From positions 1 through 33,035 of the IMG/VR virus record IMGVR_UViG_3300028653_000007: 33,035 bases of DNA; one strand, written 5' to 3'. Made by a program: the position numbers and the translations under genes. Each line of letters starts with the position of its first letter. Position 1 is the first letter of the stretch. The notes beneath the pieces are model-generated. The model saw nothing but the letters and a program-made list of their open reading frames with translations, did no database searches and was not told the origin of the DNA. The stretch comes from a virus. Positions 1 to 33,035 of this stretch are shown piece after piece.

Positions 1-126
1 AAATTTAACCCAATTTCAAAGAAATTTAACCCAATTTCAAAGAAATTTAACCCAATTTCAAAGAAATTTAACCCAATTTCAAAGAAATTTAACCCAATTT
101 CAAAGAAATTTAACCCAATTTCAAAG
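1..126. repeat. Left terminal tandem array, 6 x 21 bp
   Basis: Six perfect head-to-tail copies of a 21-bp unit. Each unit is a 15-bp inverted repeat AATTTCAAAGAAATT (6-bp arms around AAA) followed by TAACCC. The first 111 bases equal the last 111 bases of the window, so the ends are compatible with circular closure, or with a longer array collapsed by assembly. The spacers are identical, so this is not CRISPR. The arrangement resembles iterons, or an array of operators for a dimeric protein; that role is inference. Frame +1 through the array is open and would encode repeated KFNPISK. Confidence 0.95.
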
Positions 127-135
127 AGGACATGG

Positions 136-356
136 ATGACTAATAAACAATTAAAAGAATTTTTTAATATAAAATACGCTGAATGTGTTAAATTTCTTAC
201 GAAATTGTGTTAAGTGTAATATATCAGTCCCTATTGTGTGTTTAGAATGGGCTAAATGTATAAACTGCTAAACATAATATTATACCTTACTGTATATACT
301 GTCGGAAAGTAGGTGTTAAATTCTATAAACTTAATAACCAAGGTAGATTTTGTTAA
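136..356 (+). pseudogene. Broken Cys-rich (zinc-binding-like) small ORF
   Basis: ATG at 136 follows GAGGA at 127-130 and opens a reading frame that stops at 211-213 (25 aa). The stop lies inside a copy of the palindromic repeat. Removing 22 bp (one repeat unit bounded by TGTGTTAA at 184-191 and 206-213) joins the start to a downstream frame ending at 271. The result is a 37-aa product with CVKC and CINC motifs. A second frame (264-356) continues with YCIYC and ends GRFC, suggesting a further one-base lesion near 264-271. The CxxC pairs suggest a zinc ribbon, but I recognise no family. It may be a decayed gene, or the 25-aa peptide may be real. Confidence 0.4.
184..213. repeat. Palindromic repeat copy inside small ORF
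   Basis: Variant of the terminal repeat in the opposite orientation: GTGTTA, then AATTTC-TTAC-GAAATT (4-base loop instead of 3), then GTGTTA again. Direct 8-bp copies TGTGTTAA flank it 22 bp apart. It interrupts the Cys-rich ORF. Confidence 0.75.
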
Positions 357-376
357 ATTTCTTTGAAATTGGGTTA
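352..376. repeat. Solitary copy of terminal palindromic repeat
   Basis: Contains GTTA, then AATTTCTTTGAAATT, then GGGTTA: the exact reverse complement of the terminal unit. It starts at the stop codon of the second piece of the Cys-rich ORF and lies about 25 bp beyond the end of the minus-strand ORF at 400-611. Confidence 0.9.
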
Positions 377-3142: not shown

Positions 3143-3463
3143 ATGTCAGAAGAAAAAAGTAAATTAATTGGTGTGATTAAAAAATCTAACACCGAGCAGA
3201 TACAGGTAAAAGTTAGATTGTACAAAGATATATTGTTAGCAGATGCAAGAATCTGGTATATTACCGATGAGGGCTGGGCGCCGACACGAAAAGGTCTTAG
3301 TTTTACAAAAAATAGTTTGGAACAAATAATACCTATGTTACAACAGATATTAGATGTAATGAATAATGTCAAGAAAAAGGAAGAGACAAAAGAAGTAAAA
3401 GAAGAGACGAAAGTAGTTACACAGGATAAACTTGCAGAAATTATTAAGAAGAATACTGAATAA
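3143..3463 (+). CDS. PC4/YdbC-like ssDNA-binding protein
   Basis: 106 aa with a strong GGAGG five bases before ATG. Residues 21-70 match the PC4 fold pattern: beta strands (QVKVRLYKDI, ARIWYITDEGW), the basic turn PTRKGLSFT (residues 48-55, like the RKGISL motif of PC4 homologues), then a helix (NSLEQIIPMLQQIL). PC4/YdbC proteins dimerise and bind ssDNA or melted duplex. The C-terminal 30 residues are a charged KEE/KEV tail, probably disordered. It is the last gene before the convergent terminator. It may protect ssDNA or modulate transcription. The family is inferred from the motif by eye. Confidence 0.7.
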   Translation: MSEEKSKLIGVIKKSNTEQIQVKVRLYKDILLADARIWYITDEGWAPTRKGLSFTKNSLEQIIPMLQQILDVMNNVKKKEETKEVKEETKVVTQDKLAEIIKKNTE

Positions 3464-29706: not shown

Positions 29707-30245
29707 TAATTATCTTCCTTCTTATTATTATCAAAGAAATTATTACTTAAACTAGATGTTGCTGGTAAATTAAAGAATACATTTGTATTACTATCAACAC
29801 GACCACTCATTTCCATTTTTACAGGCATAATATATTTACTTATTTCTTTAGTTGCATATAATACAATCCTCTCATCATGGGATTGTAATAATTCTGCCCA
29901 GTTATCAAGCAACATATCTTTTAGTTCCTGAACATCAGTTATCTTCTCTAACATATTAATTTTTTTCCTGATAATGCTACGACGATTAGGTCCTGTAAAT
30001 CCTGCACGTGCTGTATTGCCTGCTACAAATTTACCAGTAAGGGGATTTCTACCTTCATAAAATTTAGAACTATATACTTCATACTGTTTAATAAAATCAC
30101 TTATTGTAATAACATTATCTTGTATTACTTTCTGTTCTTCGGTAGATATAATTTCAGCAGTAGGTATAGTTTCAGCAGTAGGTTCAGTAGGTTCAATAGG
30201 TATAGTAAAAGAACCTGATATTTCTAATGATTCATTCATATTCAT
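29706..30245 (-). CDS. Putative terminase small subunit
   Basis: 179 aa overlapping terL by TAATG. The segment NPLTGKFVAGNTARAGFTGP (about residues 63-82) resembles the GRFxxGNxG motif of phage small-terminase-like proteins. It is followed by helices (KKINMLEKITDVQELKDMLL) and a C-terminal strand KMEMSGRVDSNTNVFFN similar to the TerL-contacting tail of such proteins. The N-terminal 45 residues are Pro/Thr/Glu-rich and probably disordered. It overlaps the HTH gene by 14 bp; either gene could supply DNA recognition. Confidence 0.6.
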   Translation of the reverse strand: MNMNESLEISGSFTIPIEPTEPTAETIPTAEIISTEEQKVIQDNVITISDFIKQYEVYSSKFYEGRNPLTGKFVAGNTARAGFTGPNRRSIIRKKINMLEKITDVQELKDMLLDNWAELLQSHDERIVLYATKEISKYIMPVKMEMSGRVDSNTNVFFNLPATSSLSNNFFDNNKKEDN

Positions 30246-30858
30246 ATCTCTTTTCTAATAATAATTTATGTAATACTATATTACTTTCATCAGTAAATCT
30301 TATAAATTCAGGTACAATTCTCTGAGGTAAAAATGAACCATTAGCAAATAATAATACTTTAAATTTTGATTTTGGTATTATACATGTTTTAGGTATTATA
30401 CCAGATTTATAATATTTTAGTATATCTTTTTTGTACATTAATAACTTTTTTACCATTATTTTAGAGATATGCATAGGTACATTATTATCATCAACAAATA
30501 CAACATATTTATTTAAAATTCTTGAGATATGTTTTTTAGATTTAATATTATTTTTACTTTCACCTTTAACTATATCTCTTAATACTGTATTATGCTTGTG
30601 TAGAGTAGCATAAATAGTACTATTATTAATGTTCAATTTTTTTGCAATATCATTTATACTAAGACCTGAATTATATAATGGTACAATCTTATCTCTAATT
30701 CTAATGTTAACTTTAAATTTATCTCTTAATGTTATATTATTAGATTTTAATGTATTATACACTGTGCCTCTACTGAAATATAATTTTTTAGCAATATCAT
30801 TTATACTTAAACCTGACTTGTAGAGTTTTATAATATTTTTTATATCTTTCTTTCTCAA
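30232..30858 (-). CDS. Tandem helix-turn-helix DNA-binding protein
   Basis: 208 aa with two resolvase-like HTH units: residues about 7-45 (LYKSGLSINDIAKKLYFSRG, TVYNTLK) and about 53-92 (LYNSGLSINDIAKKLNINNS, TIYATLH). The GLSINDIAKKL core is repeated exactly. The C-terminal half (about 110-208) has VVFVDDNNVPMHISKIMVKK and is of unknown fold. It lies directly before the putative small terminase, so it may help choose the packaging site, or it may be a freestanding regulator or the HTH part of a homing-type gene. No nuclease motif was seen. Confidence 0.65.
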   Translation of the reverse strand: MRKKDIKNIIKLYKSGLSINDIAKKLYFSRGTVYNTLKSNNITLRDKFKVNIRIRDKIVPLYNSGLSINDIAKKLNINNSTIYATLHKHNTVLRDIVKGESKNNIKSKKHISRILNKYVVFVDDNNVPMHISKIMVKKLLMYKKDILKYYKSGIIPKTCIIPKSKFKVLLFANGSFLPQRIVPEFIRFTDESNIVLHKLLLEKRYEYE

Positions 30859-31935: not shown

Positions 31936-32175
31936 CTAATTTTCTAATTTCTTTGAAATTGTGTTAAATTTCTTTGAAAATGTGTTATAAGCATCAATAT
32001 TATTATCAACTTTAAAATATCTATGTGTATTATCTTCAGATGCTGCCATAATTATTAGTGCAGAAGCACTTAAATAATGTAATGCTTCTGTCTTTGTGTA
32101 AAGACCTGATATTTGTTTAATATACAGGGCAGGATAATAATTATTATTACAGCCAATATATAGTTTATATTTCAT
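31936..32175 (-). CDS. 79-aa protein ending in palindromic-repeat sequence
   Basis: Starts MKYKLYIGCNNNYYPALYIK; the body resembles no family I know. The last 17 residues (YNTFSKKFNTISKKLEN) are encoded by two copies of the palindromic repeat (31946-31987), read in the frame that would give KFNPISK in the terminal arrays. No Shine-Dalgarno is present. A TATTTATAAT box at 32176-32186 sits so close that the mRNA could be leaderless, or translation could start at the internal Met43. First gene of the leftward cluster. Confidence 0.5.
   Translation of the reverse strand: MKYKLYIGCNNNYYPALYIKQISGLYTKTEALHYLSASALIIMAASEDNTHRYFKVDNNIDAYNTFSKKFNTISKKLEN
31946..31987. repeat. Two coding copies of the palindromic repeat
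   Basis: AATTTCTTTGAAATT, GTGTTA, AATTTCTTTGAAAAT, GTGTTA: two 21-bp units in the orientation opposite to the terminal arrays, with GTGTTA replacing GGGTTA. They lie within the 3' end of the 79-aa gene. Confidence 0.9.
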
Positions 32176-32374: not shown

Positions 32375-32419
32375 GTTAAATTTCTTTGAAATTGTGTAGA
32401 ATTTACTGAAAATGTGTTA
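32375..32419. repeat. Palindromic repeat pair upstream of rightward gene
   Basis: GTTA, AATTTCTTTGAAATT, GTGTAG, AATTTACTGAAAAT, GTGTTA: one good and one decayed unit. TATAAT (32427-32432) and TATTTATAAT (32438-32447) follow immediately, before the gene at 32465. This position suits an operator. Confidence 0.75.
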
Positions 32420-32464: not shown

Positions 32465-32911
32465 ATGAATGACAAAAATAATATTGAAGTACCATTGAAA
32501 GAACATTTTGATGATAAATTTATAGAATTAGAAAAAAGATTATCAGAAAAACAAAAATATCAAGAAAAAGCTCTTCAAACAGCAAAAGAAGAACTGAATC
32601 GACGATTGGAAGGCATGAATGAATTTCGTGAACAATTACAATCACAGGCTGTTACATTTTTAACGCGTGAAAGATTTGATTCACAGTCAGAAAAACACAC
32701 TGCAGAACACAAAACAATCGATGAAAAAATTTCCAGATTACTTTCTTCTGATTTATATCATTCTGAACATAAAACACTCGCTGATAAAGTTGAAGAAATA
32801 TCAACTTGGAAATCAAAACAAGAAGGTGCACAATCGTTTGCTAATATAGTCAGTGTTATTGCTGTAATTATTTCTATATTCATGGGTATTTTACATTTTA
32901 TAAAACCATAA
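32465..32911 (+). CDS. Coiled-coil protein with C-terminal membrane helix
   Basis: I choose ATG 32465 (148 aa, MNDKNNIEVPLKEHFDD), because GGAG lies 9 bases upstream; the ATG at 32450 overlaps that site. A charged coiled coil (EKRLSEKQKYQEKALQTAKE) precedes GMNEFREQLQSQAVTFLTRE, a motif familiar from many phage membrane proteins near lysis genes, and a C-terminal membrane helix (IVSVIAVIISIFMGILHFI). A holin or lysis-accessory role is plausible. The stop TAA (32909-32911) touches the terminal array. Confidence 0.7.
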   Translation: MNDKNNIEVPLKEHFDDKFIELEKRLSEKQKYQEKALQTAKEELNRRLEGMNEFREQLQSQAVTFLTRERFDSQSEKHTAEHKTIDEKISRLLSSDLYHSEHKTLADKVEEISTWKSKQEGAQSFANIVSVIAVIISIFMGILHFIKP

Positions 32912-33035
32912 CCCAATTTCAAAGAAATTTAACCCAATTTCAAAGAAATTTAACCCAATTTCAAAGAAATTTAACCCAATTTCAAAGAAATTTAACCCAA
33001 TTTCAAAGAAATTTAACCCAATTTCAAAGAAATTT
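32910..33035. repeat. Right terminal tandem array, about 6 x 21 bp
   Basis: A partial copy (32910-32924), five full copies (32925-33029) and six bases of another, in the same orientation as the left array. The last 111 bases equal the first 111 of the window. On a circular map the two arrays are one block between the 148-aa gene and the Cys-rich ORF. Confidence 0.95.

Follow-up and report, generated by a model that had tools for sequence, protein, structure and literature searches.

A palindromic unit of 22 bp lies near the left end of a phage genome, flanked by two copies of TGTGTTAA and surrounded by short reading frames rich in cysteine codons. Is this unit a small mobile element that was inserted into a gene, in the manner of bacterial REP sequences or Rickettsia palindromic elements, or does it belong to another kind of repeat? 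The question was addressed in the complete virus record IMGVR_UViG_3300028653_000007, which is identical with the window (the whole stretch of DNA analysed, 33,035 bp, 31% GC). The phage genes include those for terminase, portal, capsid protein (Phage_capsid_3), an SU10-type adaptor and a collagen-like tail fibre. The features at the locus are collected in Table 1.

Table 1. Repeat units and reading frames at the locus and at the contig ends
Feature	Position	Strand	Remarks
Terminal array, left end	1..127	-	6 units of 21 bp, AATTTCTTTGAAATTGGGTTA on the - strand; perfect over 127 nt
25-aa ORF	136..213	+	AGAGGA 5 nt upstream of ATG; gene-like codon usage in first 18 codons
Open frame with CVKC and CINC	173..271	+	Runs through the unit without removal
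5' TGTGTTAA flank	184..191	+	Matches the tail of a unit
Solo 22-bp unit AATTTCTTACGAAATTGTGTTA	191..212	+	Subject of this study
3' TGTGTTAA copy	206..213	+	Overlaps the unit end; gives the TAA stop of ORF 136-213
Third segment, another frame, KHNIIPYCIYCRKVGVKFYKLNNQGRFC and stop	270..356	+	Stop at the edge of the repeat copy at 355
Solo unit identical to array unit	355..376	+	GTT just before
Two tandem units	31945..31987	+	On the - strand encode the C-terminal NTFSKKFNTISKK of the 79-aa ORF 31936-32175
Two diverged tandem units, 21 and 20 bp	32378..32419	+	In the gap between divergent ORFs
Same terminal array, right end	32909..33035	-	Likewise exactly 127 nt

The repeat family and the contig ends

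The contig begins and ends in a single tandem array of 21-bp units, with exactly the same length in each arm. An array longer than k would be cut to arms of 127 nt by a de Bruijn assembler with k=127, and the two contig ends therefore most likely join. The array is probably longer than assembled. The start of the array falls within the stop codon of a 153-aa ORF.

The family unit AATTTCTTTGAAATTGKGTTA is found on the - strand in the array and on the + strand at 191, 355, 31945, 31966, 32378 and about 32399. The unit at 191 differs from the array unit in the loop, which reads CTTACG in place of CTTTG. In local alignment it scored 33 of 42, whereas 60 shuffled genomes gave no more than 30, which bears out the assignment of the unit to the family of the terminal array made in an earlier note on this DNA. 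No further copies were detected by local alignment scoring between 400 and 31930, where the best score was 26 (33 for the unit at 191 and 42 for the full array unit). On the circular map, all units thus fall in a segment of about 1.5 kb, from about 31.9 kb to 0.4 kb across the contig junction. They share the palindromic core AATTTC-NNN-GAAATT and are spaced by 20, 21 or 22 bp across the array, the pairs and the solo copy, corresponding to about two helical turns. Taken singly, the units are predicted to form only weak hairpins (-1.4 and -2.6 kcal/mol, z -0.9 and -1.2). A role as intrinsic terminators was set aside, as no terminator-like site was predicted at any of them; a search of Rfam gave nothing credible.

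An assembly artefact was considered, in which the unit was put beside the array by mis-joined repeat k-mers or represents a minor strain variant. The array ends of exactly 127 nt, as left by a collapsed k=127 graph, do point to assembler trouble nearby. However, the loop CTTACG is unlike that of every array copy and the flanks of the unit are unique, so it was not copied from the array, and an artefact is improbable.

Reading frames around the unit

The copies of TGTGTTAA at 184-191 and 206-213 are 22 bp apart, and deletion of 22 bp yields MTNKQLKEFFNIKYAECVKCNISVPIVCLEWAKCINC followed by a stop, in which ATG136 is joined to a 37-codon frame. The continuous 37-aa frame that had been proposed was thereby confirmed from the sequence. 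What the deletion was said to restore, the two pairs CVKC and CINC, is present without it. CVKC (TGT GTT AAG TGT at 206-217) and, further along, CINC are both located wholly downstream of the insert, in the frame NTLNVLNFLRNCVKCNISVPIVCLEWAKCINC (then a stop) that is already open with the 22 bp in place, and for this reason they are no argument for removal. The removal merely links the CxxC frame to ATG136, a match of phase expected by chance in about 1 of 3 cases. Frames with two CxxC pairs are expected at 0.12 per shuffled genome; the real genome holds 4, three of them shadow frames opposite long ORFs. The cysteine-rich frame is unusual, but not unique in this genome.

A second frame break near 269 sets apart a third CxxC (CIYC), which lies in the next frame after the 37-aa frame, and a composite reading of 65 aa results if one base is skipped at about 269. 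The composite matched the NF011481 (PRK14890) zinc ribbons with E 0.0023, at 17.9 bits against a cut-off of 61, and the HVO_2753 (NF041909) zinc ribbons with E 0.031, at 14.1 bits against a curated cut-off of 80, too low a score for assignment to the HVO_2753 type. The CxxC spacing is like that of these proteins; the phage composite differs from them in falling far below the cut-offs and in having two frame breaks in its sequence. None of nine shuffles with fixed cysteines gave a zinc-ribbon match. The match is weak, as it is abolished when a single placeholder residue is put in at the second break. The idea that removal of the unit restores a zinc ribbon was dropped, with E 0.0023 after removal compared to 0.005 with the 22 bp kept.

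No relative of the 65-aa composite was obtained by tblastn at E below 1 among phages, plasmids and viral contigs, and a match in phage mEp013 at E=7 was rejected. Patterns of the cysteine spacing of the restored peptide returned unrelated frames and nothing else. The earlier note had named the lack of any homologue of the restored peptide as a result that would speak against it, and for these collections that is the result.

It is possible, although we hold it only tentatively, that there is no gene at all, and that the array and the solo units stand in a non-coding control region where cysteine-rich frames are open by chance. Synonymous codon usage was -4.5 and -4.2 in the two downstream cysteine-rich segments, poor in both, compared to 5th percentiles of -1.8 and -1.3 for real genes. 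Short open frames are frequent in DNA of 31% GC, about 1.6 kb close by is likewise gene-poor, and the failure to find a homologue in phages, plasmids and viral contigs fits as well. In contrast, the AGAGGA-ATG start and the gene-like codon usage of 136-189 (+3.5 for the 18 codons from ATG136; median of real genes 4.1) argue for a gene, as do the low expected number of double-CxxC frames and a zinc-ribbon match that is weak yet shuffle-resistant. The region from 136 to about 350 is therefore read with caution, either as a small zinc-ribbon-like gene with two frame breaks or as a control region whose open frames mislead; in the former case the cysteine-rich frame would once have been a gene.

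In translational bypassing of the T4 gene 60 type, ribosomes would hop 22 nt between matched codons, and both GTT/GTT and TGT/TGT pairs are present, with identical take-off and landing sequences and a small hairpin between them. Such a hop is very improbable here: it would be followed by the second frame break at about 269, the hairpin is weak, the downstream codon usage is poor and the protein product is itself only putative.

Several other features were observed close to the cluster. An open frame on the - strand at 401-625, with no in-frame ATG at its start, contains an exact 33-bp tandem duplication (506-571) coding for a charged KKLEVEKRKQL repeat. The gene-poor stretch at 620-2220, about 1.6 kb, contains an exact 32-bp direct repeat at 1364 and 1509, a duplicated promoter-like segment of 58 nt (1525 and 1765, 79% alike) and several GGCACAA motifs. 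A perfect hairpin at 775-812, ACGGCAC/GTGCCGT (-12.1 kcal/mol, no T run), has GGCAC in common with the nearby motifs. On the - strand at 1145-1235, two hairpins are predicted with the complementary 8-nt sequences GGUCGAGU and ACUCGACC in or at their loops; with z -2.9 and no credible Rfam match, they are a candidate kissing-loop or pseudoknot-like RNA.

Comparison with mobile palindromes

The earlier note had suggested that the unit is a small palindromic element that can spread within the genome like REPs or Rickettsia palindromic elements and was apparently inserted into the gene. In such an insertion, TGTGTTAA would be the duplicated target site. Membership of a repeat family and the direct repeat on both sides of the unit are what such an insertion would leave. 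However, the copies are confined to a single cluster of 1.5 kb and the 22-bp copy at 191 shifts the reading frame. The direct repeat is also weaker evidence than it seems: GTTA also precedes the palindrome in the solo copies at 355 and 32378, and a unit in tandem context always has the GTTA of the preceding unit 5' of itself. With a 5' GTTA in two other solo copies, most of the TGTGTTAA flank is accounted for as the edge of the repeat itself. No exact match to the repeat, searched in two forms, was found in 2.9 million viral contigs, and a search of 84,980 genomes gave one match, in a coding stretch of Lutibacter without similarity in the flanks, which was taken as chance and not as a family member. 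No transposase, the RAYT tyrosine transposase included, was recognised among the main ORFs of the phage in searches of Pfam and PHROGs, although the host could supply one. The transposase-named PHROG matches were only to the helix-turn-helix part of a 208-aa protein.

Rickettsia palindromic elements are about 150 bp, encode a peptide of their own and occur in many unrelated genes genome-wide (PMC10969869). The phage repeat resembles them as a palindromic repeat within reading frames, and the pair at 31945-31987 extends its frame in phase. It differs in its length of 22 bp, in being out of phase at 191 and in forming one cluster, and thus has neither the encoded peptide nor the dispersal over unrelated genes. 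REPs usually number more than 100 copies per genome and are extragenic, dispersed and accompanied by a tyrosine transposase (PMC2817692). The phage units are likewise short, palindromic and sometimes grouped, as in REP/BIME elements with RAYT; unlike those, they lie in one cluster, lack a stable stem-loop as single units and come with no recognised transposase. A mobile palindrome is accordingly a poor fit and has a low probability, and the genome-wide spread that had been proposed gives way to a local cluster.

TerL and the portal protein had matches of 22-28% in named phages, while the capsid, 245-aa and 153-aa proteins had none there. In viral contigs, no relatives were found with exact 8-residue patterns from TerL, the major capsid protein and the 245-aa early protein, patterns that reach close relatives only. 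The empty site that had been called for was thus not found within that reach, and insertion of the 22 bp is unproven because no relative was found to polarise it against ancestral presence. Of the proposed palindrome in a cysteine-rich gene, what stands is a unit of the array family within a possible small zinc-ribbon gene that has been broken; no empty site marks it as an insertion.

Putative protein-binding repeats

The confinement, the spacing of 20-22 bp and the weak hairpins are more in keeping with direct repeats that bind a protein than with a mobile element of defined structure; with single-unit hairpins this weak, a duplex binding site in particular fits better. Our preferred reading, with a probability of about one half, is that the 22 bp belong, as a single unit, to a local cluster of direct repeats, putative protein-binding sites that spread locally and of which one lies in a probably decayed zinc-ribbon-like gene. 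The cluster would most likely consist of binding sites two helical turns apart, for example iterons of an origin, or operators at which a regulator or partition protein binds. The size of the array could change through slippage or unequal recombination, and extra units could reach nearby sites by short-range template switching or by recombination at the shared (TG)TGTTA edge, a route in which no transposase would take part. One unit would in this way have come to lie in the small gene (136 to about 350), which has at least one further frame break and has probably decayed. One observation runs against protein binding: in the copy at 191 the arms are kept and the loop is changed, which could also mean selection for the hairpin.

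Several direct repeats of about 20 bp with regular spacing are what is expected of iterons. The origin of phage lambda has four 19-bp iterons inside gene O (PMC4488673). The phage units are like these in being direct repeats of about 20 bp, regularly spaced at one locus, with some copies in coding sequence. Unlike the lambda iterons, the array has more copies, placed head to tail at 21 bp with no spacers, and in a phage with no identified initiator gene the units are putative iterons. No initiator, ParB or repressor binding the repeats was identified. Of the two + strand genes that follow the gene-poor stretch, the one at 2373 had no Pfam match and the one at 3143 has a PC4 domain; no Rep protein was recognised. 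The latter gene (3143-3463) matched the PC4 (transcriptional coactivator p15) domain with E 2.2e-8, in a phage without recognised replication genes. On the - strand at 30232-30858, just before the terminase genes, is the gene for the 208-aa protein, which has two helix-turn-helix repeats and is a candidate for either a binder of the repeat or the small terminase.

Repeat units tend to abut the 3' ends of genes, as seen for the 79-aa and 153-aa ORFs and the third cysteine-rich segment. This is consistent with local spreading that is tolerated there; with so few sites, it is only suggestive. Codon usage in the 79-aa ORF (- strand) was +12.4 for the body and -3.4 for the tail coded by the repeat. 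In a bolder form, which we consider unlikely, template switching at the 7-8-bp edge of the repeat would also let the binding-site array colonise genes in its vicinity; it would have extended the 79-aa ORF in phase and broken the cysteine-rich ORF, a spread of regulatory sites free of any transposase.

The feature is real but modest. Direct repeats of an iteron-like kind form a cluster, and one of their units stands alone beside or in a small gene that has probably decayed. So far this is a single unpolarised example, from a phage for which no close relatives are known. If the units are binding sites that creep into the genes around them, they would illustrate the growth of iteron or operator clusters and the loss of small phage genes next to such clusters.
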